From the NCBI GenBank assembly GCA_017445875.1, contig JAFSRZ010000036.1:1-50888 (forward strand): a stretch of DNA of 50,888 bases. The letters are read 5' to 3'. This document shows, piece after piece, positions 19,613 to 45,577 of this stretch. The stretch is from Oscillospiraceae bacterium (GTDB lineage Bacteria; Bacillota; Clostridia; Oscillospirales; Oscillospiraceae). The stretch's first letter is position 1. Each line of letters opens with the position of its first letter. The position numbers and the translations under genes were made by a program. The notes below the pieces were generated by a model. The model was not told the origin of the DNA. It saw nothing but the letters and a program-made list of their open reading frames with translations, and searched no databases.

Positions 19613-19635
19613 CGCGTTTTTCCTCCTCCAGACAA

Positions 19636-20118
19636 TCACTGACATTTTACCACCGCGACCCGGTTCGCGGGCAGTCCGGTCAGCGCCGTGACCGCCTCCG
19701 TCACCGCCAGCTTGACCGCCGGCAAATCCCCGCCCTCGCATACTACCAGCGCCCCCCGGTATGTCGCGCTCTCCGTCCGCGTCACGACGACCGCTTCCCC
19801 GTTCCGGGCGTCCAGAAGGACTGTCTCGGAGCTTTCGGAGTATTCGTCCCCGCGAAAAGAGATTTTTCTGTCCCGCGCCAAGGTCTGTGCCGGACTGCTC
19901 TCCTCCGTCAGCAGTACCCACACCGCGCCCACGTCCCGGATTTTGCCCAACGCCGCCTGTAAGTCGCCTTGCAGGTCCCGCGACTGTGGCGCGGGAGTCG
20001 GCACCGCCGCCGCGCCGCGTGGCTCCGTCGGCCACAACATCAGCGCCGCGCCAAGCGCTATCACCAGCGCCGCGAATTTGTACTTGTCCCATGCCGCCCG
20101 CACTCCTTCCGCACTCAT
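19636..20118 (-). CDS. spoIIIAG: Stage III sporulation protein AG
   Basis: 160 residues, ATG at 20116-20118. SpoIIIAG forms the large ring of the feeding-tube complex in the mother-cell membrane. It has a membrane segment (KFAALVIALGAALMLW), a Pro-rich linker and a ring-building domain. The family signature ATYRGALVVCEGGDLPAVKLAVTEAVTALTGL is close to consensus. In most spore formers it is the seventh gene of spoIIIAA-AH; here the region upstream is the end of the adhesin operon, so AA-AF are elsewhere or lost. It has its own SigE-like promoter. Confidence 0.92.
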   Translation of the reverse strand: MSAEGVRAAWDKYKFAALVIALGAALMLWPTEPRGAAAVPTPAPQSRDLQGDLQAALGKIRDVGAVWVLLTEESSPAQTLARDRKISFRGDEYSESSETVLLDARNGEAVVVTRTESATYRGALVVCEGGDLPAVKLAVTEAVTALTGLPANRVAVVKCQ

Positions 20119-20233: not shown

Positions 20234-23200
20234 TTACGGTGTTGCGGGCGCTATCGGTTCTGTCGGCTCCGCGTCCAGCGGAACCGGGGCAGACGCGCCG
20301 TTTCCGTCTACAGTGAACCAGAACCAGTTATCATTTGTCGCCGTGATTCTGGCGTAACCGTCCGGAACCGTGGTCTCGTGCAGATAGTACGTCCCGTACG
20401 GGAGATTCCCGACCCAAAAGACGCCATTCGACGCAGAGGTCAAACCGCTTGCCATCACTGTTTTGTTATAATACAGGATATCGAATACGGCGTCTTTCAG
20501 AGACCCGTTTTCGCCAATCTTGCGCAGAATGACCGGGCTTTGCTTGTCCGTGTTTGTGTCCGAGAAGATGTTCATGATACCGAATTTTGAGATATCCGGC
20601 GTGGGCTTTCCGTTACTGTCCTGCAGGATGTTTCCGGCGTCATCCAGCAGGAAAACGCCAAATTCCTTACCATCCCACACATTTTCCCCGCCAACACAGA
20701 GAAGGTACTTTTTCTCCGGCTCCGGTTTGAATCCTGCCGGAGTGACCGTTTCCTTCATGTAGTGGACGCCGTAAGGAACCATAAGAAACTTGATATTGCC
20801 GTCCACATCACTGGTTGCTTCGATACCCTCATCATCTTCAGGTCGGCACCGGAAATCCGAGTAGAGCCTAAACGTAGCGTCTGGCAGAGCGCCACCGGAA
20901 CCGTTCACTTTCTGGAAGAAGTTGTTGACCTCTATGTCTTTTTGCTTGTTGGTGAACTCGGCTTTGGATTCGGTTCCGCTACTGATAGTCCCCGTGCCGC
21001 CGTTGCTTGTGGTTGTGAAGTCGCTGTTTTCCGTCTCAGTGACAGTGTAGCCGATACCCGCCGGTAAGCCCGTCGCGGTTACGCTCCCGCCGTCTCGCAA
21101 TTGGAACACATTCGAGACGTTATTATGGAACGTCATACCGTCATAAGTGCCGTCTTGCACTGTGCCGCCGGTCAGCGTGACCGTGAAGGCAAAGTTCGTG
21201 GTCAAGTCTCCGGGACGGGAACTTTTTACTGTCTTGCTGACGGTCAAACTTCCCGTCTGGCGTGTGTTGGTGAATGTCACATGGGAGTCCGCGCCCTTGC
21301 TGATGGTGCCGACCGCGTACGTGTTGACATCCGCGCCTGTGGCGTCTGTAATGGTGGTGGTCATGTTGTCAACGGGCGTCTCGCTGACCCGGTAGGCCAG
21401 CCCGCACGGAAGATTGATAGTTTTACTTGTTCCGCCCGGTATCGTGACATTATCCGACACGCCACTACCGCCGTTAAAGCGGACGCCGGAGAACGTATAC
21501 GACGGATATTCACCAAGAGACGCCCCGACAAAGTTGCCGGTGTCGTCGAGCTTGCCCAGTTCGATTTTGAAGACATAATTTTTAGTTCTGTCTTCCAAAA
21601 CAGAGCTGTCGACGTTCTTGGTAATCGTCAGACTGCCGGTTTTGCGGGTGTTGGTGAACGTCGCGGTAGCCGCGTTTGCGCTGATGGTACCCTTCGCGCC
21701 CGTGCTGATTGTCGTGAAGTCATCGTCCGGCGTCTCGGTCACTTCATAGCGGACATCTTTTGGCAATTCCTGTGCTTCCACTTCTTGACCGTGTTTCAGC
21801 GTGAACTCCGCGACGCCGTCTTTGAACGTCATACCGCCGTAGGGTTTGCCGTCCGGGTATTCCACCGTATTACCAATGGTCGTATCGTTCAGCGTGACCG
21901 TGAAGGTAAATTCTTTGTTTTCGTCCAGCGCTTTTGTGTAATTACTCACGGTCTTTTTGACTTTCAAAGCGCCCTGTTTCCGGGTGTTCGTGAACGCCAC
22001 GGTAGAGCCGTCTGTGTTGATAGTACCCATGTTAGTGGCTTTCGTTTCGCCGTTCTCTGTGACGGTGACAGCGGTATCAAAGTTAGCGTCGGGCGTCTCG
22101 GTCACGGTGTAGTCGACATCCGTCGGGAGTTCGGAAATCGTGACGGACTGACCGTTTTTCAGCGTGACCTTTGCCGCGCCGTTTTTGAAGGTTACAGTTT
22201 CCGTGATTCCGTCGGGATTTCTCACGGCGTCGAACGTCTTATTGATTCTTGTGTCACCCAGTTTCACGTTGAACGTAAAATCAGTGTCGGCGTCCTCGGT
22301 CAGTCCGTTGAGTACAGTCTTGCTGATTTGCAAGGCACCCGTTGCGCGGGCATTCGTAAAGGTAGTGGTAATGCCCGCCGCGCCGATAGTTCCGCTTTCG
22401 TTGGTTTTGCCGGTGTTGTCGAAGTTGTCCGGGATATTCACTTCCTCCACCCGGTATTCCATTTCCCGCGGCAGGCCGGAGATAGTTTTTGTCGAGGCTC
22501 CTTTGATAGTAACCGTTGCGACGCCCTCGGTAAATGTCGCGCCTTGGTAAGCCTTGTTAATGCTCTTATCAGCGGTGAACTCGCCGTTGATGGTCGTGCC
22601 AAGGCTGACTTTGAACGTGAACTGGGTATCCCGGTCGGCGTAGCGGTCGCTTTCGAGTACCTTACGAATGGTAAGTTTTCCGGTCTGGCGGGTGTTGACA
22701 AACGTGGATGTAATGACGTTATCGGTAACGCGCCCCATACTGTTTGTTTTGCGGGTATTGAGGAACCCCGGCACGCTCTCCTCTGTTACGGTGTAGTTGA
22801 CGTTATAGGGCAGGCCTATGGCCTCTTTATATTCGCCGTCTTTGAGTGAGAACGTGGCAACGCCGCTGACAAATTTCATGGCGGTATCGCCCTCGCCGTA
22901 CGTGTGGGTAACAGTTCTGTCACTCAGTGTCACGGTGAAGCTGAACGACACATCCTTGTCGGCGGCGGCGTCGCTGGAGACCGTCTTTTTGACGATTAAG
23001 CCGCCCTTTTTGCGCGTGTTGGTGAACTGGACATTGTTCTCACCGGGTTGCAGGTCGACATTCGACACAGAGGAAGTTTCTTCATCGTTGACCTTGGTTG
23101 TGGTGTTGAAGTTGCTGTTGTATTTCTCCGTGACGGTGTATCGGATACCGGTGGGGAGGTTTGACGCCGTGACCGGGTTGCCGGGCGTCAGTGTGAACTC

Positions 23201-26200
23201 CGCCTTGTTGCCGGTGAAGGTCATATCCCCGTAGGTGCCGCTGATAAGGTCATTCTTATCATTGGAGAGCAGTACCGTGAAGGTAAATTCTCTGTTCTTG
23301 TCGTCGTCATCATCGCTCTCAACGGTTTTTGTCACGGTCAGATTGCCGGTCTTGCGGGTGTTGGTGAAGTCGACCGTATGCGCGGAGGGCGCGTCCTCTT
23401 CATTGCTGAACGTACCCGTTACGCCGATTCCGTATTTGTCCACTCCGTTCACGTTGATTCTGATGTTTTTGTCCGCGTCGGAAACTTCGGTTCCGTCGTT
23501 GACGACTGCCGTTGTGAAGCCGCTGTTTTCGGTTTCCATGACGGTGTATCCGCCCGTGAGGCTCCCGCCCATCGACGGAAGATACAGCGCGGTTTTGGAT
23601 TCGCCGTCTTTCAGGCTGAACTCCGCGACGCCGTTGGTGAAGTTCATGGAGGTTTTCCCCTTGCCGAGTTCCCCGTTAATACTGCTGTCAACGATTACGG
23701 TAAAGTGGAAGGACATATTCCGGTGGTCACTGTTCAGGGGGCTGGATACGGTCTTGCTGACCGTGAGGGACTGCATTTTCACCCATATGACTTTGTTCTC
23801 TGTATCATGCTTCCAGCCGCGCAAAGCGTTTCTGTCGTTGACAAACAGGAACAGGTTGTCGTCTCCCGTCCGGGTACCGAACAAGTCCCCCTCCCCGCCG
23901 CGTGTCTTATAAGGGTCGGTAGCATCATCGCCCGGCACATACACGCCGATAAGCGCGTCCACCCCAAGGCCGCTGGTGTTGATTACGGCGTCCGTGTCCT
24001 GATTCAGTTCGACGTTGCACTTTATGTTGTCGCCCTTTGTGTTGTTGTACACCACAACATTGTCGGAGAAGTACAATTTGGACCCCGTGTTACCCACGGA
24101 AATACCGCCGCCCGTGGTGGCGCTGTTGTTCTGGACAGCGCCGCCGGACATGTTCATGGTCTTTTTGTCCGCGACGAACACGCCGCCGCCACTGCCGGAA
24201 GCGGTACACTTTGTGATACTACCGCCCGACATCGTAAATGTGCCGTTGTTCACGAACACGCCGCCGCCGTTGCCGGAAGTCGCACTACAACTCCGGATTT
24301 CGCCCTTGCGGAACTCGAACGTCTGCCCTTTGTCTTTCATATAAACGGCACCGCCGTTTTGCGCTTTACAGTTCTCGATTGTTCCGCCGTCTATCACGAG
24401 ATTTCCGGACTTTACACAGACGCAACCAGTACCACTACTGTCCACCGTGTTGTTACCCTTGCGGATAATCGCGTGTTCTCCCAGTGTTGCCGTCACGGTG
24501 TTATCGGTATCTTTTATCAGGAAAAGAGAACCCTCCGTATTTGTCGGGATATCAGCTCCGTCCAGAATGATATTTTCGAGCGTAAAGCTGACTTTCGCGG
24601 TCACGAGACTGTTTGATGTGCTTATCCCCGTGGCGGTGGCTCTGACAATGGTCGCGTACGAATCCTCGCCCCTGTACGGGAAGCCGTCCTCGTCATCTTT
24701 GCCCGCCGTGGTGAAGGTGATGTGCTGCCACGTATTATCCTTATTGGTTCCGATATAATTGCTCACCTTGTACGACTCCAACATCTTGACACAGAAATCG
24801 GTGCCTTCATAGTGGGAACCGTCCGCGTAATACAGCATGTTCCGAATTTCGGACCGGCTCTTTCTTAAAAAGGCAAATGCCGCGTCGGGGTTCGTGTTCG
24901 TTATTTTACCGTTATTGACGTAGTTGTCCAAGTGGTCAAATACGGCGGCGTCCGCCTGATTCTCGTCGAAATAGAGCAGGTTTCCGTCCGCGTCGGTAAT
25001 CTTGCAGACGGGCGGAGCGCCCCAGAGAATCTTTTTGGGGGTTTCGCGGTCTATCGCGCCATAGAGGTCGTTATCGTCGCCCTTGAAAGCGTCCATGTTC
25101 GCGGGACGGTCGTCATCCGCAAGCCCGAACTTTGTGCCTTTGTTTCTCGCGTTCAGGACGCGCAACTCACTGTTGTCGCTCAAATGACTTTTTATCCTGA
25201 CACAATCTTCCTTGTTCACGCCGCTTTGCATGGGAAGTCTGAGGTTGGACGCGGTGCCGTTGCTGGTCTCATTTTCGCGTACGATGATGGTATCCCGGTC
25301 GCTTTCACTGTTAGGGCCGACGGTCAACGTCTTTTCGTCGGGCATATATACGCCGGCACCGTTGTCCGCAGTGCTGTTCAGGAGAGAGTTATTTGTAATA
25401 GTTGTGTTGTTGCAGAGTGTTACGTTACCGCTGGCGTACACGCCGCCGCCTCTGTAGCCGGATTGATTGCCGCGTATGGTGCAGTGGTCGAGGACAAGTT
25501 CCAGTCCGGCGCTCTGGCAAATGCCGCCGCCGCCTTCTGATTGTCTACCATTTTCGTCCATAGCCGCTTTCGCGGTGTTATTCTCAAAGGTACAGCCTGT
25601 TACAGTAGTGTTCCGGTACGTTGTACGGAACGCGCCGCCACGACAATTGGCGTAACAATACTCGAAAGTGCAATCCTCCACCGCGAGTGATGTGTTACCG
25701 GATGCGCTGGCGCTTGTATCCTGCAGATAGGCGTTGAACGCGCCGCCGTTTCGCCCCGGCTGAACGCCATTTTTCCCGTCCATTTCTGTGGCCTGACAGT
25801 ATGAGAACTCACACCCCTTAACCTTGGCGGTGTAACTGTCGAGTTCCAAGCCGCCGCCCGCCCGCGCCTTACACTCTGTAAAAGTACAGCCAATGACGGA
25901 AGAACGGGAGTCCGCACGATAAGAGTAAGCCGTGTCAATTCTATGGAACACCGCCCCGCCTTGGTCGTAGGCCTCGCAGTAACGGAAGTGACAGTTCGTC
26001 ATCTGGAAATCTACGGCGGTTGTCCAAATCGCGCCGCCGCCCATACGACTGTCTCCCGTGGAAGTGCAGTGGTCAAAGTTACAATCGAAAATGTGGAGTA
26101 CGCAAGCGTCACCCTTATCATTTCCCACGTAAACCGCGCCGCCGTTTCCGGCTCTGAAATTCTGGAAGTCACAGGATTTAATCGTCACAGTACACCGACT

Positions 26201-29200
26201 TGCGTTGACAACGCCGCCGTTGCTCGAACCGAGCTGGTAGCCGTTGAAGTTCAGATTTTCGATGGTCAGCGCGGTTCCATCCGGGGTTCCGTTCGCGGCG
26301 GCGTTCTTATTCACCGTGATAAACGAATTGCCGTTGCCTTGGTCGCGGCTGATGGTTGCGCGTTCGCCCTCGCCTCTGTAAAGATATTCCTCGCCGCTCT
26401 CCGGCTTGGTGGTCGCGGTGGTGAGCGTGAAATTCTGACCATTGGAAATATTCGGCTTGTCCCCCGATGGAATCGGATAATCCTGCAACAGCTCGATTTT
26501 GACGGTTTGACAAGGGTTGCCGTTCTCGTCTATGACGGGGTTGCCGTTCTCATCCGTGACGGGAACTTTATACATGTAGCCTGTCTCCACGGCTTCCTGC
26601 AAACTGGGATAGGTGTATTCATTGATTTTATTGCCGTCCGCGTCGCGTTCCACAATTTTACAAATCATGGTGGCCTTGCCGAACACAATCTGAATCGTGG
26701 AATTATTACTAAAGGTTTTTCCGGTGATGTCAAAGGCGGTCATTTGCGTGGGAGTAAGTGAGGCTTCCTGTTTGGTGGGGTTTTTATCCGCCGTGTCGTA
26801 GGAGTAGTCGACGGATACATTCTCTCCAAAGCTGTCGCCGAAAGAACCGTTGAGCGCATACTGTTTACCACGCACGCCGGGGAACATCAACTTGATGTTG
26901 TTCTTTGGCGGTAATATCAGGTCACTGGCCTGAACGGGAACAAAGTGGTTCACGGTCGCGCCATTGTGGACGACGACAAAGCCGAAGCGGTTTTCCGCCA
27001 CGTTGATATTATTGTCCAGTATCAGGGAACGGATGTTCAACGGGTACTCCGTGTTGTTGGCGATGGAGACATAGGCCGGGAGAGAGTAGTAAAGAATCAG
27101 GGTATCGACGTTGGTTACAGGGGGGGCGTCGTCGTGACGGATAGCGCTCCAGTTTCCGGTGGCGCTGTCCCAATTGACTTTGGAAAGACACTGGCTGTAT
27201 TGGTTATCACCGGGCAAAAACGCGCAGGCAAACACCACGTCACTATTATTGGAATTCAGTGTCTTAGCCTTGGCTAAAAGTTTGGTATCCGTGCCGATAT
27301 CAGAGACAAAGTTCTGAATGTCGGCGGGGTAATAATCGTCCATGCTGATGAATCCAGTATCCGGCTCCGGTCGCACTGGCGGTCGGGTGGCGCTGTCGCT
27401 GAAGTCCGCGACATAGTAGACCTTAACCTTTAACGGCTTTCCCCAGACAAGCCGACTGTCTTCGACACTCACGGTCATGCCGGGTGTGCGGTCATTGCAG
27501 AACGCGTTACCTGCCTCCGCGTTCGTACTGGTGCAGACGCCGAACTGCTTCTGTGACACGCCGCGGTTTTTGTACACGCTTCCGTCACCCGGCACATAAA
27601 TGCCGATTTGCTTGGGTTTGGAGTCCAATCCCACAAGCGCGTTGATGATAGCTGGGGAATCCACGTTGAGACAGACATTCGCGGGAGAGGCGCTTGTCTC
27701 GTCTGTCTCATCCCCGGTCGTTTTGGACAGCGTATTATCAATGATTTTCGGAGAGCCGGTGAATTGCAGTCTGACGGAAGCCGAGCCGATACCCACCGCG
27801 CCGCCGTTCTCGTTCGTGGCGACGTTCCCCGTGATTTCGCCGCCCGAAAAATTGGCGTTGCCGGAATTGATGAAAATCGCCGCGCCGTTGACCGCCATAT
27901 TCTCGCCGCCGATTTTGCCGCCTTCGACTGTGACGCCGCTTTCGACGTAAATCGCGCCGCCGTACGTTGTGGCGCTGTTGCCCGCGAGTACGCCGCCGGA
28001 GATATCCACTGTCGCGCCGTGGGCGTACACCGCGCCGCCGTTCTGCGTGGCGCTGTTGCCCGTCAGGGTACCGCCGGAGATGTTCACCGCGCCGCCCGTG
28101 GCGGAAATCGCGCCGCCGTTTTGCGCCGTGTTGCCCGTCAGGGTGCCGCCGGAGATGTCGACGGTGCCGCCGGTACTCTGAATCGCGCCGCCGTTGCCGC
28201 TGTTCTTGGCGTTTCGGATTGTCGCGCCGCCGGCGATATAGAGTGTGCCGCTGTTGACAATCATGGCGTTGTTTGCCGTGACATTCCCGCCGTTGCCGTC
28301 AAGGATGATTCTGCTGTCCAGTTCCTCGCCGCCTAAGTTCAACGTGCCGTGGTTCGTGAACATGACGCCGGTATGCCCCGGTGCGCGGGTAATGGTGGCG
28401 CACTCGCCTTCATACTCCGAGGCGGTGGACAGCGTAATATGACAGTTGGCGGGAATGTTGACCTCATCCGCGGCGGGCATGATGTAGTCCGTCAGCATTT
28501 CGATGATGGCGGTGCCGTCATACTCTGTCCGGGCATACCCGACCGCGCTGGAAATCGTCTGGAACTCCGTCCCCTCAATTCTGCAAATATTGCCCCGCAC
28601 GTTGGTAAAGACAATGCTGGTCTGGCTCTCCGCCACGGAATAGAGCGACGCCGTGACATCCTCGTACTCGTCGTCGTTTATGGAAATCCATGTCGTATAG
28701 CGGTTGGGATTGTCCCCGATTTTCTCCTCCACGGTGATGGAAGCCCCCAGCGGAATGGAAAGTTTCTGGTCTCTTGTCCCGCCGCCGCTGACCGCGAGCG
28801 TAAACACGGCCTCGCCGTTTTCATCCGTTGTGATACCTTCGGCAAGCGGATAATCCCGGACAGGTTCTTCGTTATCGTCCGTCAGCTTCACGCCGAAAGC
28901 AAACGGTTCCGGGGTCGTCGCCAGTTCATCTTCGAGTGTTTTTCTGACCACCACCGCCGGATTGACGGTAATCCAGCCGTCTTCCACTTCAAAAGTAACC
29001 GTCTCAAAGTTCGGGTTGATGTTGCTGAAAAAGTCCGGTAAAAGGTTCATTTCCGTGGTTCCGGCGTCGGTACGTTTGGCCTCATTGTAGCCGTTAAATA
29101 CGAAATCGTCCTCCGTGTATAAACCGGTGCTGAACGCCACATCGTACCCGCTGACGCTGTGTTCCGTGCCGTCATAGGTGAACGTGCCGGTATGGCCTGT

Positions 29201-32200
29201 GACAGTCACCGTCGCGTCAATCGGCGTAATGGTCTGATAGCCGTCCTCCACCACAAATTTCACGTTGCTGAAGTTGTCACTGCTGTTGTTGCTGAAACTG
29301 GCCTCCAACAGTCCCATATCGGTAGTACCGGCATTTGTACGGCTGGCGGTGGCGGTGCCGTTGAACGTGACATACTCCGCTTTGTACAGGGAATTTTCCA
29401 CGACCTGTACATCATAGCCGCTGACGGTGTGTTCGGTGCCGTCATAGGGCACTGTGTTGTTATGACCAATGATATTGACGATAACCTGTTCCTCAAAGGG
29501 GGTAATGGTCACATAACCGTCCGTCACATCAAAAGTTACCGTCTTAAAGTTAGGGTTGGTGTTCTGAAACTGTTCCGCCGTCAGTCCCATGGGATATGTG
29601 CCGACATTAATTCCCGTAGCTGTCGCCTCGCCGCTGAACGTAAAATCCCCGTTGACATTGTACAAGTCCGTATCGGGGGTGGCGGTGTAGCCGGTGATAC
29701 TTTGCTCTGTGCCGTTATACTCATACGTGTCGTTGTTGCCGATAATGGTCACGGTCGCGTTAATCGGCGTAATTTCCTGCCAGCCGTCCGTAATGACAAA
29801 GGTCACGTCAAAGTTGGGCTTGTCATTGACAAACTGCAATTCCATGAGTGTTTTGCCAACGTCGGTACGTTTAGCTTCCGCCGTGCCTTCGTTGTGGAAA
29901 TCAGTCTCTTTATATAAGGTATCGCTGATTTTCACGTCATAGCCGCTGACACTGTGTTCCGTGCCGTTGTACACTGTCGTATCGCTGTTACCTGTGATAG
30001 TCACTGTAACCGGCCTCGACGTAATGGTAAAGTCGCCCGGTTCAAAGACTACATTGTAATTACCCTGTTCCGCCGCGCCGGACGCCGTGATAGCGTACGT
30101 TCTGACATCCTGCCCTGCCTCGCGGGACAGTTCATAGGAAATGACACTTTCCGTATCCCCGTTTTTAAGCCCGGTCACAGTCGCCGTCAGTGTGGGGTCG
30201 GTCTCGCCGGTATTGTCATAGACTTTCGTTTTTTTCTCTGCTGTGACTGTGACAGTTGCCCGGTCAATCGTAAATGTACCATTTACATAGGACACGTTAT
30301 AGTTACCCTGTTCCGTCTCGCCGGACGCCGTGATAGCGTACGCTCCGACACCCTCTCCCGCCGCACGGGCAAGGCTATAAGTAATGACATCTTCCGTATC
30401 CTCATTTTTAAGCCCGGTCACAGTCACCGTAAATTCCGGGTCGTCCTCGCCGTAGACTTTCGTTTTGTCGTCCGCTTTCACGGTGACAGTCGCTTTCGTA
30501 ATCGTCAGCGTACCCGGCACATAGGTCACGGTATAGTTGTCCTGCGTCGTCTCGTCGGTAAACTGGATAGCGTAATTCCCCACGTTTTCGCCTTTTACGC
30601 GGGACAGCGTATAGGAAATCCCTTCCGGCAAATCCGCCGGTTCCCCGTTCACTGTCACAGTCGCCGTCAGTTCCGGCTCCGCGCCGCCATAGACTTTCTC
30701 TTTGTTCTCCGCCGTGACCGTGACAGTCGCTTTCGTAATCGTCAGCGTACCCGTTTCATAGGTCACGGTATAGTTTCCCTGTTCCGCGTCACCGGTGGGC
30801 GTGATGGTATACATTCCGACACCCTCTCCCGCCGCACGGGACACCGTATAGAAAATGACACTTTCCGCGTCCTCATTCACAAGCCCGGTTACAGTCGCCG
30901 TCAGTTCCGGCTCCGCGCCGCCATAGACTTTCTCTTTGTTCTCCGCCGTGACCGTGACCGCCGCTTTCGTAATCGTCAGCGTACCCGTTTCATAGGTCAC
31001 GTTATAGTTTCCCTGTACCGCATCACCGGCGGGCGTGATGGTGTACGTTCCGACATCCTCGCCCTCGTTGCGGGACAGTGTATAGGCAATGGTGACACCT
31101 TCCGGCAACTCCGCCGCTTCCCCGTTCACTGTCACAGTCGCTGTCAGTGCGGGGTCGGCCTCGCCGTACGTCTTGGAGGCCGGATTAGCTGTCACGGTAA
31201 CAGGAATCAGTTCGGCGGACGTGTCCTCCGTAATGGTCAGCGTACCCGGCGCATAAGTCACGGTATAGTTGCCCTGTGTCGCCTCGCCGGTGGGCGTGAT
31301 AGCGTACGTTCCGGCCTCATCTCCCGCGACGCGGGACAGCGTGTAGTTGACAGTATCCGTCCCTATAAGCCCGTCAACAGTTGCCGTCAGTTCGGGGTCT
31401 GCCGCGCCGTGGACTTTCGTTTTGTTGTCCGCCGTCACGGTAACGGCTTTCGGCGTGACTTCCAACGTACCGTTTATATAAGTAATGTCATACTGCCCGG
31501 TCACATTTTCGCCGTTCCTGTCCAAGATAACCGCGCCGCCGGGGACGTTCGCACTGCTTCCGGCGTTGGTCTGACTGCCCGTCACAGTGACGCTCTCGAT
31601 ACTGTCTCCGTCCCTAAGTCCGCTGTGCGTACACGTGGACACTGTCAGGGGGTTGCCGTCGTAAACTTTGGTGCCGCTGTTCGCCGTGATGGTCAGATTC
31701 AACCCGCCCACGTGGGTATAGCCTTCTCCGTCCGTAAAGCACGGGGTTCCTGTCGGAATATAGGGGGCAAGCGGCGTTGTACCCTGCTTGAACACGCCCC
31801 CGGTAATGCACAAAGCATATAGGTTGTCTGCGGCGCTGACAGGTGCCTCGAACAGTCCGCCGGTAATGGTGGTAATTTTGTCGTTTCCAGCCGAAACAGA
31901 CACGCCATCGATTGTGCCGCCGCTGATTTTCGCTGTAGAGCGGTCTATCTTTATCGCCTCGCCTTGACCGTTATTGGTTACTTCGCCGCCGGTGATGATA
32001 GCTTTCGCGTTGTCCTTTACGTTGAGGGTGAGCTCGTTCGAACTGGACAGAGTGCCGTTCTTAATTTCAATAGAGGAATTGCTGTCTTCAACGGTCGCCG
32101 CCGGATATTGAGTGCTGGTAGTGCTTACGTTTGCGCCGTCAATCACTATCGAAGCGCCGTTGTCGGCATAGAGAACATAGCGGGAACTTTTGACTCTCAG

Positions 32201-33109
32201 GCCGCTTCCCAGCACAATAGTGCCGCCCTTGGACGCGTAGTTCTCTTTGGTCGCGTAGATGATATCATCCTTGTTATCAGAGGTAATCGTGCCGTTGATA
32301 ATGGTCAACGCTCCGCCGTTCTTGGATGTGATACCCTGATTGACGTTCACCTGTAACTTATGCCCGTTCAAGTCTATCGTAAGCGTTTTGTTCGTGGAAA
32401 GAACGCTGTTCACGGTCACGTCCTTCAAAAGCGTTATCGTGTCCCTGTTCTGTGCATAATTCAGCGCCTCGGACAGCGTGGGATAGGGCGTGTCCCCGAT
32501 TTTGGCCTCATATTCGGGTCCCTCTAAAAAATACGCCGGGAAAAGATTCGTCGTGAAGTCCACAAATTTTTCGCTGACAATGCCGCCCTCCACGATTTCC
32601 AGCGGCGCGGACACCGGCACCGGCTGGGACGCCGTCCCCACAAACGCGTACACCGAGAAAGAATCCGTCTCGAAGTCCAGCGCGCCGGAGCCGCCCCGTT
32701 TCAGGGACGGCGACACCACGCCGCCCCCGTCCAGAAAGTGCAGAACGCGTACCGCGCCGCTTCCGGGCAGGCGGAACGCCACCTTCACCGGCGCGGACGG
32801 CTCAATCTCCGTGCCGTCGGGGGCCAGACAGCGGATGTCGAACGCCCGCATACTGTCCACGCGTCCCAGTTCCGCCACGGCGCGGGCGTAACAGCGCCCG
32901 TAGCGCGTCCCCGACAGCTCCGCGACTTCCAGCGACGCCCCCGCCGGAATCCGCGCCGCCGCGCCGTACGTCACCGCGATTTCGTAGCTTGTGCCGTCCG
33001 AGGCCGTCAGTGTCCCCGACGCCCCGCCGAAACGCGCCAGTAATCCAAGCGTGATTACGCAGAAAAGCAGAATCCCCATTTTATGGTATCTGTTGAGAAT
33101 CCCGTTCAT
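20234..33109 (-). CDS. Giant secreted adhesin of MBG, beta-helix, DUF5979-like and SpaA modules
   Basis: About 4,291 residues in one uninterrupted frame; ATG 33107-33109 with GAGGTGA upstream (GTG 33110-33112 is an alternative). Order of parts: signal peptide (MGILLFCVITLGLLARFGGA); N-terminal domain to ~170; beta-helix with serial short repeats (~200-470); one larger and six MBG repeats (~474-1031, VTVTAENKEKVYGGAEPELTATV type); four NxTxxYNGTEHSVSGYD repeats (~1033-1385); a Cna-B-like domain (~1390-1510); three more beta-helix regions (~1510-3110; GGAVYxxGxxxxISGGxLTGNxA and Cys-rich variants); eight Cna-B/DUF5979-like domains (~3113-4060; LTVSKTV...F.FTV) and two SpaA-like domains (~4060-4292). 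It ends PTEPIAPATP with no LPXTG, SLH, choline-binding or transmembrane tail. It is the last gene of a type IV pilin operon, so a pilus-tip or pilus-secreted adhesin is my inference. Confidence 0.88.
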   Translation of the reverse strand: MNGILNRYHKMGILLFCVITLGLLARFGGASGTLTASDGTSYEIAVTYGAAARIPAGASLEVAELSGTRYGRCYARAVAELGRVDSMRAFDIRCLAPDGTEIEPSAPVKVAFRLPGSGAVRVLHFLDGGGVVSPSLKRGGSGALDFETDSFSVYAFVGTASQPVPVSAPLEIVEGGIVSEKFVDFTTNLFPAYFLEGPEYEAKIGDTPYPTLSEALNYAQNRDTITLLKDVTVNSVLSTNKTLTIDLNGHKLQVNVNQGITSKNGGALTIINGTITSDNKDDIIYATKENYASKGGTIVLGSGLRVKSSRYVLYADNGASIVIDGANVSTTSTQYPAATVEDSNSSIEIKNGTLSSSNELTLNVKDNAKAIITGGEVTNNGQGEAIKIDRSTAKISGGTIDGVSVSAGNDKITTITGGLFEAPVSAADNLYALCITGGVFKQGTTPLAPYIPTGTPCFTDGEGYTHVGGLNLTITANSGTKVYDGNPLTVSTCTHSGLRDGDSIESVTVTGSQTNAGSSANVPGGAVILDRNGENVTGQYDITYINGTLEVTPKAVTVTADNKTKVHGAADPELTATVDGLIGTDTVNYTLSRVAGDEAGTYAITPTGEATQGNYTVTYAPGTLTITEDTSAELIPVTVTANPASKTYGEADPALTATVTVNGEAAELPEGVTIAYTLSRNEGEDVGTYTITPAGDAVQGNYNVTYETGTLTITKAAVTVTAENKEKVYGGAEPELTATVTGLVNEDAESVIFYTVSRAAGEGVGMYTITPTGDAEQGNYTVTYETGTLTITKATVTVTAENKEKVYGGAEPELTATVTVNGEPADLPEGISYTLSRVKGENVGNYAIQFTDETTQDNYTVTYVPGTLTITKATVTVKADDKTKVYGEDDPEFTVTVTGLKNEDTEDVITYSLARAAGEGVGAYAITASGETEQGNYNVSYVNGTFTIDRATVTVTAEKKTKVYDNTGETDPTLTATVTGLKNGDTESVISYELSREAGQDVRTYAITASGAAEQGNYNVVFEPGDFTITSRPVTVTITGNSDTTVYNGTEHSVSGYDVKISDTLYKETDFHNEGTAEAKRTDVGKTLMELQFVNDKPNFDVTFVITDGWQEITPINATVTIIGNNDTYEYNGTEQSITGYTATPDTDLYNVNGDFTFSGEATATGINVGTYPMGLTAEQFQNTNPNFKTVTFDVTDGYVTITPFEEQVIVNIIGHNNTVPYDGTEHTVSGYDVQVVENSLYKAEYVTFNGTATASRTNAGTTDMGLLEASFSNNSSDNFSNVKFVVEDGYQTITPIDATVTVTGHTGTFTYDGTEHSVSGYDVAFSTGLYTEDDFVFNGYNEAKRTDAGTTEMNLLPDFFSNINPNFETVTFEVEDGWITVNPAVVVRKTLEDELATTPEPFAFGVKLTDDNEEPVRDYPLAEGITTDENGEAVFTLAVSGGGTRDQKLSIPLGASITVEEKIGDNPNRYTTWISINDDEYEDVTASLYSVAESQTSIVFTNVRGNICRIEGTEFQTISSAVGYARTEYDGTAIIEMLTDYIMPAADEVNIPANCHITLSTASEYEGECATITRAPGHTGVMFTNHGTLNLGGEELDSRIILDGNGGNVTANNAMIVNSGTLYIAGGATIRNAKNSGNGGAIQSTGGTVDISGGTLTGNTAQNGGAISATGGAVNISGGTLTGNSATQNGGAVYAHGATVDISGGVLAGNSATTYGGAIYVESGVTVEGGKIGGENMAVNGAAIFINSGNANFSGGEITGNVATNENGGAVGIGSASVRLQFTGSPKIIDNTLSKTTGDETDETSASPANVCLNVDSPAIINALVGLDSKPKQIGIYVPGDGSVYKNRGVSQKQFGVCTSTNAEAGNAFCNDRTPGMTVSVEDSRLVWGKPLKVKVYYVADFSDSATRPPVRPEPDTGFISMDDYYPADIQNFVSDIGTDTKLLAKAKTLNSNNSDVVFACAFLPGDNQYSQCLSKVNWDSATGNWSAIRHDDAPPVTNVDTLILYYSLPAYVSIANNTEYPLNIRSLILDNNINVAENRFGFVVVHNGATVNHFVPVQASDLILPPKNNIKLMFPGVRGKQYALNGSFGDSFGENVSVDYSYDTADKNPTKQEASLTPTQMTAFDITGKTFSNNSTIQIVFGKATMICKIVERDADGNKINEYTYPSLQEAVETGYMYKVPVTDENGNPVIDENGNPCQTVKIELLQDYPIPSGDKPNISNGQNFTLTTATTKPESGEEYLYRGEGERATISRDQGNGNSFITVNKNAAANGTPDGTALTIENLNFNGYQLGSSNGGVVNASRCTVTIKSCDFQNFRAGNGGAVYVGNDKGDACVLHIFDCNFDHCTSTGDSRMGGGAIWTTAVDFQMTNCHFRYCEAYDQGGAVFHRIDTAYSYRADSRSSVIGCTFTECKARAGGGLELDSYTAKVKGCEFSYCQATEMDGKNGVQPGRNGGAFNAYLQDTSASASGNTSLAVEDCTFEYCYANCRGGAFRTTYRNTTVTGCTFENNTAKAAMDENGRQSEGGGGICQSAGLELVLDHCTIRGNQSGYRGGGVYASGNVTLCNNTTITNNSLLNSTADNGAGVYMPDEKTLTVGPNSESDRDTIIVRENETSNGTASNLRLPMQSGVNKEDCVRIKSHLSDNSELRVLNARNKGTKFGLADDDRPANMDAFKGDDNDLYGAIDRETPKKILWGAPPVCKITDADGNLLYFDENQADAAVFDHLDNYVNNGKITNTNPDAAFAFLRKSRSEIRNMLYYADGSHYEGTDFCVKMLESYKVSNYIGTNKDNTWQHITFTTAGKDDEDGFPYRGEDSYATIVRATATGISTSNSLVTAKVSFTLENIILDGADIPTNTEGSLFLIKDTDNTVTATLGEHAIIRKGNNTVDSSGTGCVCVKSGNLVIDGGTIENCKAQNGGAVYMKDKGQTFEFRKGEIRSCSATSGNGGGVFVNNGTFTMSGGSITKCTASGSGGGVFVADKKTMNMSGGAVQNNSATTGGGISVGNTGSKLYFSDNVVVYNNTKGDNIKCNVELNQDTDAVINTSGLGVDALIGVYVPGDDATDPYKTRGGEGDLFGTRTGDDNLFLFVNDRNALRGWKHDTENKVIWVKMQSLTVSKTVSSPLNSDHRNMSFHFTVIVDSSINGELGKGKTSMNFTNGVAEFSLKDGESKTALYLPSMGGSLTGGYTVMETENSGFTTAVVNDGTEVSDADKNIRINVNGVDKYGIGVTGTFSNEEDAPSAHTVDFTNTRKTGNLTVTKTVESDDDDDKNREFTFTVLLSNDKNDLISGTYGDMTFTGNKAEFTLTPGNPVTASNLPTGIRYTVTEKYNSNFNTTTKVNDEETSSVSNVDLQPGENNVQFTNTRKKGGLIVKKTVSSDAAADKDVSFSFTVTLSDRTVTHTYGEGDTAMKFVSGVATFSLKDGEYKEAIGLPYNVNYTVTEESVPGFLNTRKTNSMGRVTDNVITSTFVNTRQTGKLTIRKVLESDRYADRDTQFTFKVSLGTTINGEFTADKSINKAYQGATFTEGVATVTIKGASTKTISGLPREMEYRVEEVNIPDNFDNTGKTNESGTIGAAGITTTFTNARATGALQISKTVLNGLTEDADTDFTFNVKLGDTRINKTFDAVRNPDGITETVTFKNGAAKVTLKNGQSVTISELPTDVDYTVTETPDANFDTAVTVTENGETKATNMGTINTDGSTVAFTNTRKQGALKVKKTVSNYTKALDENKEFTFTVTLNDTTIGNTVEYPDGKPYGGMTFKDGVAEFTLKHGQEVEAQELPKDVRYEVTETPDDDFTTISTGAKGTISANAATATFTNTRKTGSLTITKNVDSSVLEDRTKNYVFKIELGKLDDTGNFVGASLGEYPSYTFSGVRFNGGSGVSDNVTIPGGTSKTINLPCGLAYRVSETPVDNMTTTITDATGADVNTYAVGTISKGADSHVTFTNTRQTGSLTVSKTVKSSRPGDLTTNFAFTVTLTGGTVQDGTYDGMTFHNNVSNVFQLRDGGSVTATGLPAGIGYTVTETENSDFTTTSNGGTGTISSGTESKAEFTNKQKDIEVNNFFQKVNGSGGALPDATFRLYSDFRCRPEDDEGIEATSDVDGNIKFLMVPYGVHYMKETVTPAGFKPEPEKKYLLCVGGENVWDGKEFGVFLLDDAGNILQDSNGKPTPDISKFGIMNIFSDTNTDKQSPVILRKIGENGSLKDAVFDILYYNKTVMASGLTSASNGVFWVGNLPYGTYYLHETTVPDGYARITATNDNWFWFTVDGNGASAPVPLDAEPTEPIAPATP
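30668..31015 (-). repeat. Recent 234-bp tandem duplication within MBG repeats
   Basis: 114 bp at 30668-30781 and 30902-31015 differ at only three positions, while other MBG units in this gene are much more diverged. The period of 234 bp keeps the frame (78 codons). Confidence 0.85.
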
Positions 33110-33153
33110 CACTGTTCACCTCAATTCCGTTACGCGCCGTGTCCTTACGGCGA

Positions 33154-35595
33154 TTACTTCGTGTTGATAACCTGTGTCTCCATAGGCCAGTCCCCGTAAT
33201 GGGTTGTCATCCAGTCGGCGGTATAGGCTCCACTGTCATGAAGCTGACTGATGGTCTTAAACATATACTTGCCGCCGTAAAACTTTCGCAGAGTGTCATT
33301 GTAAGGCTTCGCGCCATTTGTACAGGGAGTGTAGGAGAGATAATCCGCGAGTGAATCATCCAACTTGCTCACATTCGGGTGGTCTTCTATGTTTCCCACG
33401 TTGGGAAGTTTCCCTGTAATGATGGACAAATAGCGGGCATTGGTAAATCTCGTTGTCGCGTCCGTTGCTTCTCCCGCGAACGCGCCCGCGTAATTGCCCC
33501 CCTCGACATAGCCGGTGACATAACAATTTTCGATTGTGCCGCCTTTTACGTCTCCGATAAGTCCTCCCGCGTTTTCGTCCGCCTTTACACTGGTTGTCGC
33601 GTAGCAGTTTTGCACGGTCAAGCTCGCCGTACTGGTTCCCGCACTGCTCCCGATAAGGCCTCCGGCGTTCTTTTTAGCGGTAACGTTATTATTGTACTCT
33701 ACGCCGATTTCCTTTTCATCGTCATCTTTTTTTGTGATTACATGCCCTCCGGCGTAACTGTCGGACACTGTGACTTGTGTGCCGCTTTCGTTGTCAATTG
33801 CGCCAATCAGCCCCCCGGCGTCGCCTTCGCCCGACGTGACGTACACCGCCGCCGCGCTCTGCTCAATGATACAAGCGCCCGGTGTCTTGTCAGCCGGAAT
33901 TTCTCCAAGCGCTATCTTTCCAATCAGACCGCCAGTAGAGGAGCTTCCTTGTATGGTTTGCTTCTCTTTGGACAAATTAGGGTCGATATCATGATGTACC
34001 AACACACGTTGCACCTTGGAATCGTCTTCCAAGACTTCCAGAACACCCGCAAGCGCTCCCGCGTTGCCGCCGCTGGACTTAACGCTGAAATTCACAAGTT
34101 CCAAGTCCGTGACGGTGGAACTGTGTCCCAGTTTTGCGAACAGTCCCGCGTTGCCGGATACGTCGATTTTGACATTGCTGATTTTCGCGGCACGAATCCG
34201 GTTGCCGAGGTTATCCGTGATTGTGCCGATGTACTCAATCTGCTCCTGATTCTCAATGGGCAGATAATATCCGTCCTTGGAGTGGGTAGTGTCACTGTAT
34301 ACCTCTACCGTTTCCGCTATCTTTTCTTTTTTCTTTAGTTTTTTCACATTCTCAACGAATTTGTCCCAGTACATGTCACTGGTCTGTTTCGCTTTGGTGA
34401 TTGCGGTACTTGGGTTAGAACCAACATAGGAGATATTGGAATCCAGATTTTCCAAGTGGCGGAAATTGGCAATATCCGCGGCGGAACCGTCTACCGAGGC
34501 AAACAGACTGTTTGTTGTGGCGCTGGCACTGGTTGCGATATTCGTCAGTTCCGTATTGTTATAGGCTACCGCACGAATTACGATATCCTCACCGGGATAC
34601 AGATTTCCACGAAATTCTTCCATCATCTTGTAAAAACGGGTGTTGGCTTGTGTCACGTCGTCGAGAATCACGCGGTAAGTCTTGACAAGGTATGGATTAT
34701 TACTATAGAGTTCCTTGTGTGTTATATAATGATTCTCATCTACAGGATAACCAGAATTGTCGATTAATTCAATAGGTGTACACTTTTTCCCGCTCTGTAC
34801 CCCGGTAATTTCAAGGTGCAGTCTTGCGGTTTTGAATGGCGAATCCCAGCGGTCTTTGTCCAAATTCGGGTTTGTGACCTCCACGTACAACTGTTCCGCG
34901 TTGACAATCTTGACCGTCGGCGGCGACAACGGTTCGCCCTTTTTCACGGGTGTCGGCGTACCTCCTGAAATCGTCGAGAACCATTCCGGGTCTACGCCAT
35001 ACCAGCCAATAATGGCGTGATTTGTTCCGTAATCGCCACGTTCTTGTTTTTTATCGTTTCCACAGTAGTCCCACAGTGTGCCTTCCGCTTCTGTTTCAGT
35101 GAATGTATAAGTAAATTTTCTGTTTACAGTTTCCCCCGTCTCTGTTTTCTCCGCCGCCGCGTAGAAAACATCCAGCACAAGGGCGGGATTCTTCTGGTAG
35201 CGGATAACATAACTGCCGCTCTTCAAAACCGTCTCATCCACCGAAGCGAAAGGCAACATCAGATTCAGCATATTCAGTGCGTTACGTGCGGGGATATGCT
35301 CCGCGACATAATAACGTATCTCTGGCGTGGTATCTGTCTCCACCTGATACAGTTCGCCCCAATCGGAATCGGAATCGGGGTCAATGCCCATGAAATTCTG
35401 ACTTTCAGCCATAGTCAGGTGATTTTGCGCGGCGACGAAAATTTCACGGGCAATGCCGTCGAGTTCCACCTGCGTGAGCGTGCGCTGATAGTGTACGACA
35501 TTGACCGCCGTCACACCCGACAAAATAGCGATAATCGCCACCGCCAGCGCCAGTTCCAGAAGCGTAAATCCCTCCGTGTTTCTGCGTGTTTTCAT
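33154..35595 (-). CDS. Large type IV pilin-like protein with GLUG-type repeats
   Basis: 813 residues from ATG 35593-35595, behind GAGGTGG; a longer in-frame start has no ribosome site. It begins with a class III prepilin signal (KTRRNTEG|FTLLELALAVAIIAIL) with Glu at mature position 5, so it should be cut by a prepilin peptidase and enter a pilus. This is very large for a pilin. The exported part has beta-rich domains with FYKMMEEFRGNLYPGEDIVIRAVAYN, then ~510-705 GLUG-like repeats (AGGLIGSSAGTSTASLTVQNCYATTSV). It is probably a tip or decorating pilin. It is 28 bp behind the preceding pilin gene and 44 bp before the adhesin gene. Confidence 0.85.
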   Translation of the reverse strand: MKTRRNTEGFTLLELALAVAIIAILSGVTAVNVVHYQRTLTQVELDGIAREIFVAAQNHLTMAESQNFMGIDPDSDSDWGELYQVETDTTPEIRYYVAEHIPARNALNMLNLMLPFASVDETVLKSGSYVIRYQKNPALVLDVFYAAAEKTETGETVNRKFTYTFTETEAEGTLWDYCGNDKKQERGDYGTNHAIIGWYGVDPEWFSTISGGTPTPVKKGEPLSPPTVKIVNAEQLYVEVTNPNLDKDRWDSPFKTARLHLEITGVQSGKKCTPIELIDNSGYPVDENHYITHKELYSNNPYLVKTYRVILDDVTQANTRFYKMMEEFRGNLYPGEDIVIRAVAYNNTELTNIATSASATTNSLFASVDGSAADIANFRHLENLDSNISYVGSNPSTAITKAKQTSDMYWDKFVENVKKLKKKEKIAETVEVYSDTTHSKDGYYLPIENQEQIEYIGTITDNLGNRIRAAKISNVKIDVSGNAGLFAKLGHSSTVTDLELVNFSVKSSGGNAGALAGVLEVLEDDSKVQRVLVHHDIDPNLSKEKQTIQGSSSTGGLIGKIALGEIPADKTPGACIIEQSAAAVYVTSGEGDAGGLIGAIDNESGTQVTVSDSYAGGHVITKKDDDEKEIGVEYNNNVTAKKNAGGLIGSSAGTSTASLTVQNCYATTSVKADENAGGLIGDVKGGTIENCYVTGYVEGGNYAGAFAGEATDATTRFTNARYLSIITGKLPNVGNIEDHPNVSKLDDSLADYLSYTPCTNGAKPYNDTLRKFYGGKYMFKTISQLHDSGAYTADWMTTHYGDWPMETQVINTK

Positions 35596-35623
35596 AGTAT
35601 CCACCTCGATACTGCTAAGTGCG

Positions 35624-36190
35624 TTACGGGTTGAGCGTGTGAATGACATAATCATCATCTTCCAATGTTGCAAGGACGACCCTGCTTCCGTCCTTGTCCA
35701 CTTTTTCCACTTTCAAACCACTGATTGTGAAAAAATCTCCGTTGTTCTGCGGATAGTTGATTGTGTCATAGGACGAAACAAAACTGGTCAAAATCAAATC
35801 GTTCTGTCTTCGCAGTTTTTCACTCGGTGCCAGAGGTTGATATGATTCCCGTGTCCTGTCAATGTCCAGATACTGAACAATCTGTATCCCATCGTCCTCA
35901 TTGTTACGGATGTTGTAATAGCCTGTTTGCGGATGCTCAAAGTAGTCAATAGCTCCATTAGCTTTGAGTACAGGCTTGGAGACACACAGTCTGCTCCGTA
36001 AGGCAATCATGGTTGTGTTAAGGTACGTTTCGGCGTTGGCGGTGTCGACGGCTCTTTGATAGGTGTGTATCACGACGGGGATACCCTGCGCCGCCATGCC
36101 CGTCATGAGCGCGAGTATCAACATAGTGAGCATGAGTTCCGCGAAGGTGAAGCCGCCGGACGTGTGCAGTTTACGGCGTTTCGGTTCCAT
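35624..36190 (-). CDS. Minor pilin-like protein (PilW/GspJ-like position)
   Basis: 188 residues. Prepilin signal KLHTSGG|FTFAELMLTMLILALMTGMA with Glu5. The rest is a small pilin-like globular part (YLNTTMIALRSRLCV...DYFEHPQTGYYNIRN) without a known domain. The ATG at 36188-36190 overlaps the end of the preceding gene by 20 bp, so the two are translationally coupled. Confidence 0.82.
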   Translation of the reverse strand: MEPKRRKLHTSGGFTFAELMLTMLILALMTGMAAQGIPVVIHTYQRAVDTANAETYLNTTMIALRSRLCVSKPVLKANGAIDYFEHPQTGYYNIRNNEDDGIQIVQYLDIDRTRESYQPLAPSEKLRRQNDLILTSFVSSYDTINYPQNNGDFFTISGLKVEKVDKDGSRVVLATLEDDDYVIHTLNP

Positions 36191-36509
36191 AAGAAATCAC
36201 CTGCTCCCCGCTGTACTTGTCAGCGTCGGCAATGTAGAGTATCACGGGTGTATTATCCTCTATGAGTGTCGCGCCGCCGCTGGAAATGGAAATTGCCCCG
36301 GAGACTGTCCGTATACCGCCGCCGCTTCGGGTCTCCAAAAGCGTATTGAGTTCATTGACTGCGGCGTTCCAACTCCGCCCGGTCTTGGTCAGATTCACGG
36401 CGGGGGAAAGCATTTGGGCGAACATTATCAGAGAAATGGCGGAAATCAGCAGTGCAACAAGTGTTTCGACCAGAGTTTCCCCGCGCCGGTTGTGGAGTGT
36501 GTGAAGCAT
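36171..36509 (-). CDS. Minor pilin-like protein (PilV/GspI-like)
   Basis: 112 residues from ATG 36507-36509 behind AAGGAGG; the in-frame extension upstream lies within the previous gene. The prepilin signal LHNRRG|ETLVETLVALLISAISLIMF has Glu5, and a short C-terminal part follows (LNTLLETRSGGGIRTVSGAISI). The size, E-T-L-V-E motif and place in the operon fit the PilV/GspI class. Confidence 0.82.
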   Translation of the reverse strand: MLHTLHNRRGETLVETLVALLISAISLIMFAQMLSPAVNLTKTGRSWNAAVNELNTLLETRSGGGIRTVSGAISISSGGATLIEDNTPVILYIADADKYSGEQVISYGTETP

Positions 36510-36519
36510 ACGCGCCTCC

Positions 36520-37182
36520 TTAATTCCCGTAACTGACTTTGCCGATGTGCCATTCCATGGAATAGATGGTAGCGTCCCCGCCGGGGATTTCCGTATACCC
36601 CATGACATATTCCATGTTCAGGCGAAACTTTTCACTGTCGCCGTTGCCGTTTTCCAGTTGGAATGTCAGGCCGGACGGCGTGAAATTCACGGTGACAGTT
36701 GTTTGCAGACTATCTATTTCACCGTCATCAGTTTTCATTTTCAGTGTGTAGTCAGGGGGTGTCGTTTCCATGTCCTTTACGTCGTTTATTATCTGGGGAT
36801 AAGGGTCTGACCACTGGATTTGAGGAGTTACGCGTTTGTCCAGCAGATAAACGGACTGGTCTATGACAAATTTTTCTTCGGTGTGTGCGTGGTTACGCGC
36901 TATCCAACTATCGCCGTGTTTTATCATTACATCGACAGTATCACCCGTGACCGTGACGCGGACAGACTTCCCGTCGAACTTTTGTCGGATAAGTTCGGCG
37001 GCGGAGGTGACGCTGAAATAGCGCTGGTCGAGTTTGGCGCGTTCGCTGAGGGTGCCGGAGGTAGCGGTACCGGCCGCCAGTACGACGCTTCCGGCCACCG
37101 CGCACACCAGAAAGAGTAACAGGGACAGCAGAAGCGTCATACCCTGACTGGAACGGAGTTTTCGTTTGAGTTGATTTTTCAC
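36520..37182 (-). CDS. Minor pilin-like protein lacking Glu5 (PilX/GspK-like)
   Basis: 220 residues from GTG 37180-37182, with GGGAGGA upstream; an in-frame ATG at 37254 would lie in the 5' leader. The signal is KRKLRSSQG|MTLLLSLLLFLVCAVAGSVVLAAG: prepilin-like but with Leu at mature position 5. Loss of Glu5 is typical of GspK and PilX, which sit at the tip of the pseudopilus. The remaining ~180 residues are soluble, with no recognised domain. It is first gene of the operon, 10 bp before the next pilin gene. Confidence 0.8.
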   Translation of the reverse strand: MKNQLKRKLRSSQGMTLLLSLLLFLVCAVAGSVVLAAGTATSGTLSERAKLDQRYFSVTSAAELIRQKFDGKSVRVTVTGDTVDVMIKHGDSWIARNHAHTEEKFVIDQSVYLLDKRVTPQIQWSDPYPQIINDVKDMETTPPDYTLKMKTDDGEIDSLQTTVTVNFTPSGLTFQLENGNGDSEKFRLNMEYVMGYTEIPGGDATIYSMEWHIGKVSYGN

Positions 37183-37280: not shown

Positions 37281-37309
37281 ATTATAGCAAAGCAAACCAT
37301 ACATTTCAA
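37281..37309 (-). promoter_or_regulatory. Promoter of the pilin-adhesin operon
   Basis: TTGAAA (37304-37309), 17-bp spacer, TATAAT (37281-37286) on the minus strand; about 100 nt of leader before the GTG. The rest of 37310-37411 is AT-rich with no gene. Confidence 0.85.
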
Positions 37310-41714: not shown

Positions 41715-41818
41715 GGCGTATGGCCTCCCTTGTTGGGATATAAGCGCGCTTTTGCTTCTGGTACAGTATTCGGAATCCGGCGCGGAAAAAATGGGGTCTC
41801 CCGCGAAAAAAAAACAAG

Positions 41819-41848: not shown

Positions 41849-41958
41849 GGATTATCGTGGACGCAGTATCCGGGGAGACCGGACTTTCGTCACTGGGAAC
41901 CGTTGCCGGAGTATCCGGGGAACCGGACTGCCGTCATACGGGCGGGGGGACTGACTGC

Positions 41959-45571: not shown

Positions 45572-45577
45572 TTTGGG

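Follow-up and report, generated by a model that had tools for sequence, protein, structure and literature searches.

Four prepilin genes followed directly by the gene of a giant secreted adhesin raise the question of whether all five products belong to a single surface structure. The genes were found in an Oscillospiraceae bacterium (GCA_017445875.1) on contig JAFSRZ010000036.1, whose 50,888 nucleotides constitute the stretch analysed here (the window). Five open reading frames (ORFs) were confirmed at positions 20234-37182 on the minus strand, in the order K, I, J, H and adhesin, and the gaps between them of 10, -20, 28 and 41 bp agree with the tight spacing and overlap described in an earlier reading of the same DNA (the original prediction). 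It is quite likely that the five genes form one type IV pilus tip module in which the adhesin is held by H at the tip. K, I, J and H would be the minor pilins which start and cap the filament, with K, devoid of Glu5, outermost and H serving as a large modular pilin, and the adhesin would exit via Sec, remain without an anchor and be held by H at the tip of a pilus assembled by PilB, PilC and PilM/N/O. In this manner a sticky rod of several thousand residues could be carried through the thick wall, and PilT could pull it back. Tip position, binding of the adhesin to H, adhesion and retraction may be inferred from the sequence comparisons given below. The genes and the parts of the adhesin are the following:

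36520-37182, minus strand: K-type minor prepilin, first in the cluster; 220 aa, GTG start, cleavage at RSSQG^MTLLL
36171-36509, minus strand: I-type minor prepilin; 112 aa, RRG^ETLVE, Glu at +1 and +5
35624-36190, minus strand: J-type minor prepilin; 188 aa, SGG^FTFAE
33154-35595, minus strand: H-type modular prepilin; 813 aa, TEG^FTLLE, with pilin helix, conserved domain, GLUG-like region and GDWP end
20234-33112, minus strand: giant secreted adhesin with no wall anchor; 4,292 codons including the GTG, starting 41 bp after H
33014-33112, minus strand: N-terminal signal of the adhesin, of Sec type as judged by hydropathy alone
32588-33025, minus strand: A2, N-terminal adhesin domain common to other adhesins, fused pilin-adhesins and one LPXTG protein
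20933-23341, minus strand: CnaB-like stalk array (DUF7601/DUF5979) called by Pfam, with a weak match to the streptococcal pilus ancillary protein Cpa
20237-20866, minus strand: A3, conserved anchorless C-terminal module of two SpaA/CnaB-like domains
20297-20533, minus strand: last CnaB-like domain, which retains Lys and Glu and in which a final strand with Asn was not recognised

The presence of four consecutive prepilin genes, one without Glu5 and three with it, is borne out by the sequences at 33154-37182 and by the recurrence of the set in other genomes. All four carry class III signal peptides, and the pattern is that of HIJK sets, with K lacking Glu5 (the window's K has Leu at +5) and the remainder retaining it. 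Pfam N_methyl was detected in I, J and H, the J score lying under the curated cut-off, and was not detected in the window's K. With a prepilin N-terminus joined to a non-pilin module, the 813-residue H is a modular pilin. Its predicted length stood, whereas the GLUG-like repeats ascribed to it were not called by Pfam in the window's H; Pfam Glug was called in one of three large H homologues scanned (L054; G and L numbers denote genomes and loci). Glu at +1 of the mature protein is uncommon among type IV pilins; in I pilins it is almost universal (Asp in one), on top of Glu5.

The adhesin consists by Pfam of seven MBG_2 and nine DUF7601 stretches together with SpaA, DUF5979 and a sub-threshold DUF4982. 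Its single strong hydrophobic segment is N-terminal. No LPXTG-like motif was found across the entire protein, none is supplied by any frame just downstream, and neither a C-terminal transmembrane segment nor an SLH domain was detected, so that the combination of LPXTG, hydrophobic segment and basic tail is not present; hydropathy and motif scan thus agree with the earlier description of a giant secreted adhesin with a Sec signal and no anchor. No prepilin site was read at the N-terminus, which implies that the adhesin is not itself a modular pilin.

Linkage of the adhesin to one clade of H pilins

Apart from the window's genome, 9 of 79 related genomes gave relatives of K: 8 of the 48 from the window's genus, and G066 as the ninth. 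A search with A1, an alignment of the N-terminal part of H (9 rows), gave 48 named loci; of the 394 genomes in the window's order, 84 were matched at E<=1e-5, many of them across the pilin helix only. Gene maps of these loci fall into two arrangements, one with a giant H, often >2,000 aa, which accompanies K, I and J and frequently stands beside pilB, and a second in which K-I-J-H ends in a short H. As the same K-I-J-H set is seen in dozens of loci, its recurrence is beyond chance. Glu5 is absent from K at all 49 called positions (2 of 51 unreadable; the call for L049 is unreliable because its start was not recovered) and is kept in I (46/46 called, 4 of 50 unreadable), J (50/50) and H (52/53 called, 2 of 55 unreadable), the lone H counted without it, L042, being a miscall of the script. 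The NCBIfam GspK model matched 18 of 33 K family members at E<=0.05, weakly, and at the same threshold ComGG matched five and PilX_N two; the window's own K was matched by none of the three models and has no PDB relatives at E<=1.

The linkage of the adhesin is confined to one part of this family. A tree of H was built from 51 of 55 rows with a midpoint root (L070, L082, L084 and, owing to its length, L074 were omitted), and all 13 adhesin-linked H pilins lie on one side of one branch with support 99/99. The clade which contains the window has 18 members from Bacillota and Actinomycetota, of which 17 are assessable since L043 ends in its contig, and in 13 of these 17 the adhesin is adjacent, near or fused to H. 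The original prediction had called for conserved linkage in related genomes and had regarded an adhesin standing alone in most relatives as an argument against a joint system; the clade displays the former. The adhesin lies directly behind H in nine genomes: the window's, G066 (L042), G282, G446 (L044), G447 (L045), G448 (L046), G450 (L048), G683 and G671. An assembly artefact at the H-adhesin junction is unlikely because the junction recurs in eight genomes other than the window's. In G635 the adhesin is located 6.5 kb from H on the same strand, and ORFs with similar starts that resemble AAA-ATPase/PD-DEXK proteins by eye occur between H and adhesin and again behind the adhesin (L211 7787-13746, L212); they may represent mobile elements by which the linkage was broken. 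The most complete arrangement is that of G447, a Denitrobacterium metagenome-assembled genome of the Actinomycetota, in which K-I-J-H-adhesin-pilB-pilT-pilC-major pilin follow one another on one strand, the adhesin being 3,952 aa long.

In three genomes H and the adhesin are a single protein encoded in one frame. The fusion of G573 has 4,609 aa, with H at 1-327, A2 at 936-1069 and A3 at 3972-4095, that of G618 has 4,252 aa, with H at 21-342, two A2 copies at 910-1046 and 1335-1470 and A3 at 3633-3728, and that of G198 has 2,901 aa; all three have the prepilin N-terminus and non-pilin modules of modular pilins. A second gene of G573 (L205 4835-15949) encodes 3,704 aa in which a Glu5-less K-type N-terminus (37 bits) precedes A2 and A3, and it adjoins a major-pilin-like gene. 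Proteins that are fused in some species and separate in others are a standard sign of joint function. The claim of a joint pilin-adhesin system is therefore supported by the three genomes with fusions and by the Actinomycetota operon, where the adhesin gene separates the minor pilins from pilB; carriage at the tip would be in keeping with the same genome comparisons. Since the same adhesin exists in two states, free and pilin-fused, adhesin loading and the origin of modular pilins become directly testable.

The possibility that the giant H pilins seen with the pil-operon arrangement (Oscillibacter and others) carry a fused copy of this adhesin was considered and rejected, as BLASTP of the adhesins against the available H pilins gave nothing at 1e-5. 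A2 and A3 occur in only G198, G573 and G618 among 55 H proteins, and the adhesin domains are absent from the other-type giants tested (L054, L079, L083). H pilins of this other type exceed 2,500 residues in those three loci and 5,000 in G199 (L162 4498-20000). L049-L051 were likewise rejected as adhesin-linked or fused, since in the tree they do not fall within the adhesin clade and their large ORFs were not shown to be adhesins, and L074, too short for the tree, was dropped from the count. The Pfam scan of adhesins did not include those of G441 and G446. In Oribacterium (L120 17106-20000) a second adhesin-like gene with a near-identical N-terminus stands behind the first, in partly masked sequence.

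Co-occurrence was assessed with an A3 profile made from the C-module alignment (8 rows). At >=70 bits it detects four genomes among the 394 in the window's order (G066, G282, G198 and G000, the window's own) and seven among the 247 in the order of G447 (G447, G477, G683, G671, G635, G573 and G618). An H pilin is present on the contig of A3 in 10 of the 11 positive genomes, and in the eleventh, G477, the match lies at a contig end. A1 at >200 bits detects five genomes in the window's order and six in that of G447; the only A1-positive genome without A3 is G083, of the pil-operon type, and the only one with A3 and without A1 is G477. Seven of the ten genomes with both (G282, G198, G618, G573, G683, G671 and G635) were in neither training alignment, and G000, G066 and G447 were in one of them. 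No p-value is claimed because the positive genomes are mutually related. A scan of viral contigs with A3 yielded two weak CnaB-type matches and nothing more.

The absence of a wall anchor follows the same division. In nine adhesins compared, the last 100 residues are without an LPXTG-like motif and there is no C-terminal hydrophobic segment. The A3 searches gave 48 loci, of which 33 with complete C-termini were scored and 15 were cut short of the C-terminus (13 unlinked, 2 linked). No C-terminal anchor was present in the ten complete A3 proteins of the pilin-linked group, which includes G477 and two fused proteins. Among the 23 complete unlinked A3-like proteins, 16 have an LPXTG-like motif, five another C-terminal hydrophobic segment and two neither, so that such a segment is found in 21. 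Of 14 cluster genomes checked for sortase, 13 have one, but the search of the window's incomplete genome gave none; in most of these genomes, therefore, the loss of the anchor tracks the pilins and not a shortage of sortase.

These observations bear on the alternative that the adhesin is independent, either secreted or loosely bound to the wall, and shares an operon with the pilins for regulatory convenience or joint transfer. The unlinked adhesins of G441, G442 and G449 and the occurrence of the N-terminal domain in a sortase-anchored protein speak for it, but it is unlikely in view of four natural fusions involving two pilin types, the co-occurrence with one H clade in two phyla and the absence of anchors that sets the linked group apart. 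Several facts nonetheless weigh against the five genes forming a single tip module. The distribution is patchy, K matches being found in just the 8 of 48 sampled same-genus genomes, and seven readable genomes of that genus are of the pil-operon type with an H that lacks the domains of this adhesin. G441 (L039) has the closest H (66% over the first 370 residues), yet its 5,049-aa adhesin is on another contig among unrelated neighbours; the adhesin of G442 (L040) is also on another contig, that of G449 (L047) is about 60 kb from H, and in G443 (L041) none was found with the N-domain, the sole query used there. The adhesin of G450 is without the A3 end domain, A2 also occurs in an LPXTG protein within a sortase locus (L163), and genomes of the order of G447 may be close kin, so that the cases are not fully independent. 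The labels H, I and J are weakly assigned from gene order and weak profile matches. The window genome, moreover, is 77% complete (1.41 Mb in 49 contigs) and has tip genes and assembly machine on separate contigs, and full-length pilB was not found in G442, G450 and G451.

The pilus machine and related systems

The original prediction placed the assembly machine elsewhere in the genome, and it was located on contig 31, where pilB, pilT, pilC, a gene for a 239-aa prepilin-like protein, pilD, pilM, pilN and pilO form a single run; contig 27 encodes a 151-aa major-pilin candidate. PilB/T and PilD were named by Pfam, and pilC, pilM, pilN, pilO and pilT by reading ORFs. The gene set of a monoderm type IV pilus (PilB, PilC, PilD, PilM/N/O, PilT and major pilin) is thus present, and the lack of a prepilin peptidase or pilus ATPase, which would have spoken against a joint system, is not observed. 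Full-length pilB was found in 10 of 13 further K-I-J-H genomes; ten of the 13 belong to the adhesin clade, and eight of these have it. A conserved prepilin-like protein without Glu5 is encoded beside pilD in three genomes (L004 3474-4193, L126 5119-5895 and L127 8047-8790); that of L004 has 239 aa and no NCBIfam match.

According to a 2023 review (PMC10191384), diderm type IVa pili display the non-pilin PilC/PilY1 at their tip, while the tip complex of Streptococcus sanguinis uses modular pilins. The PilC/PilY1 system with PilHIJK (FimU-PilV-PilW-PilX) resembles the locus studied here in that a large, modular, exported non-pilin adhesin accompanies four minor pilins, one of them Glu5-less, and in that its C-terminal part is conserved and the remainder variable (PMC10191384, PMC8179133). 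As with PilC/PilY1, a non-pilin protein of Sec type is encoded alongside the minor pilins. The present adhesins differ in that their conserved end is CnaB/SpaA-like, their hosts are monoderm, they are about 2,000-7,000 aa long and their modules are also fused to H or K, and the PilY1/PilC beta-propeller family was not found in a Pfam scan of the whole window adhesin. The proposed counterpart of PilVWX-PilY1 is consequently valid as an analogy in function and in gene logic, not as homology of the adhesin to PilY1. The parallel points to a Gram-positive equivalent of the adhesive pilus tips of Gram-negative bacteria. A separate non-pilin adhesin, associated with tip pilins and of unrelated make-up, is thereby described for monoderms in both Bacillota and Actinomycetota. 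A description of such a cluster was not found by title or abstract opening in open-licence PubMed Central, among the matches listed.

The PilA/PilB/PilC tip of S. sanguinis is likewise part of a monoderm type IV pilus, with adhesive tip pilins and one pilin without Glu5 (PMC9934059), but there the adhesive modules are built into pilins, of which the complex has three, whereas here the adhesin is a separate protein in most linked genomes and accompanies four. The most extreme many-domain modular pilin given in a 2021 survey has 860 residues (PMC8179133), compared with fusions of up to 4,609 aa here. Sortase-built surface proteins such as Cpa and BcpA share stalk domain types with the adhesin (pilus_ancill_1 and Cpa structure matches) and differ from it by the LPXTG sorting signal, which the window adhesin lacks.

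By parallel with HIJK sets elsewhere (PMC10191384, PMC9934059), K-I-J-H may be inferred to cap the filament. Type II secretion also employs HIJK sets, which make contact with its effectors (PMC10191384), and a secretion pseudopilus could push the folded adhesin through the wall without displaying it. The own Sec-type signal of the adhesin, seen by hydropathy, is in keeping with such a route. The GspHIJK tip likewise has four minor pseudopilins with a Glu5-less K, and the GspK model weakly matches 18 of the 33 K relatives. However, PilT, the retraction ATPase, and PilM/N/O are encoded in this genome, and fused pilin-adhesins are not released and would be improbable substrates for release, making a pseudopilus highly improbable. 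It is less credible still that K-I-J-H belongs to a competence (Com) pilus: the ComGE, ComGF and ComGG models match some family members, weakly, but Com pili are described as being without PilT and PilM/N/O (PMC10191384), both of which the genome has.

Possible docking of the adhesin

Both ends of the adhesin may be considered as the candidate docking end, as the fusions set A2 beside H and the anchorless end tracks the H clade. In a variant that overlaps the proposal of an adhesin held by H at the tip, docking would occur via the N-terminal A2, and the end module would act as a head at the far end or as a cross-linker. The three H fusions run from H tail through a linker to A2, leaving the adhesin N-terminus pilin-proximal, but A2 also occurs in proteins without pilin linkage, it was not found in G446 with the window query, and it is the anchorless end that tracks the H clade; docking by A2 is conceivable, with the balance of evidence tilted away from it.

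The C-terminal alternative concerns a feature at the end of H:

33157-33201, minus strand: H C-terminal tail HYGDWPMETQVINTK, GDWP followed by Asn 7 or 8 residues on; candidate docking strand

Of the 17 clade H pilins that could be read, 16 have the GDWP and Asn tail (with Asn 7 residues on in the window), whereas outside the clade such an Asn follows in 1 of 48 copies of the motif. Clade H pilins end after this tail or, in fusions, run on past it. The sole readable member without the tail, L041, is also the only one for which no adhesin was found; the tail alignment comprised 16 rows, without L041, which lacks the tail, and L043, which ends in its contig. The end domain of the adhesin resembles CnaB isopeptide domains by PDB matches and alignments, collagen adhesion proteins being among the matches along with 3kpt and 3rkp, which are taken here to be BcpA. 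It keeps a Lys (VILRK) and a Glu (YYLHET), presumably catalytic, and stops before the Asn-bearing strand and the LPXTG motif of many relatives. In 13 separate adhesins the chain ends 10-42 residues past the matched part of the end domain. A hydrophobic-x-Asn motif after the last CnaB-like domain occurs in 15 of 22 unlinked controls compared with 3 of 17 adhesins (fused G198, fused G573 and G683), or 1 of 13 separate adhesins (G683; G477 counted), although this comparison is uneven: the scan reached as far as 62 residues, and the tails of the controls exceed the 10-42 residues found in the adhesins.

From an incomplete adhesin end and an Asn in the H tail that is nearly confined to the clade, a split clip with strand swapping, perhaps covalent, may be envisaged, comparable to the joining of SpyTag and SpyCatcher. 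Such a natural split isopeptide clip, to which the H tail would give the Asn strand, is doubtful on present sequences: the fused proteins retain the H tail, G198 retains the incomplete end, and the adhesin of G450 has no CnaB-like end domain, all of which argue against a simple clip. If true, the clip would be a natural covalent protein-docking device.

Surroundings of the locus

One further feature lies before the cluster:

37281-37309, minus strand: promoter-like site TTGAAA-17-TATAAT, an 11/12 consensus match only, about 100 bp before K

Downstream of the adhesin is a SpoIIIAG-like gene with a match under the curated cut-off, and the gene after it, without a family match, is presumably spoIIIAH (window 18998-20118 for the two). 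Genes read as spoIIIAA/AB are on another contig (L005 8852-10251), adjoining phage-like genes, and it looks as if either the sporulation operon or the assembly is split. With dnaA and dnaN (window 45747-48995) about 8.6 kb from K, the pilin-adhesin cluster probably lies close to the origin of replication. In the interval, two long ORFs overlap on opposite strands, at 41713-45414 (plus) and 41959-45606 (minus). The Pfam scan, which covered the plus ORF only, gave zero matches for it, and the minus ORF is favoured by codon composition and a signal-like start.

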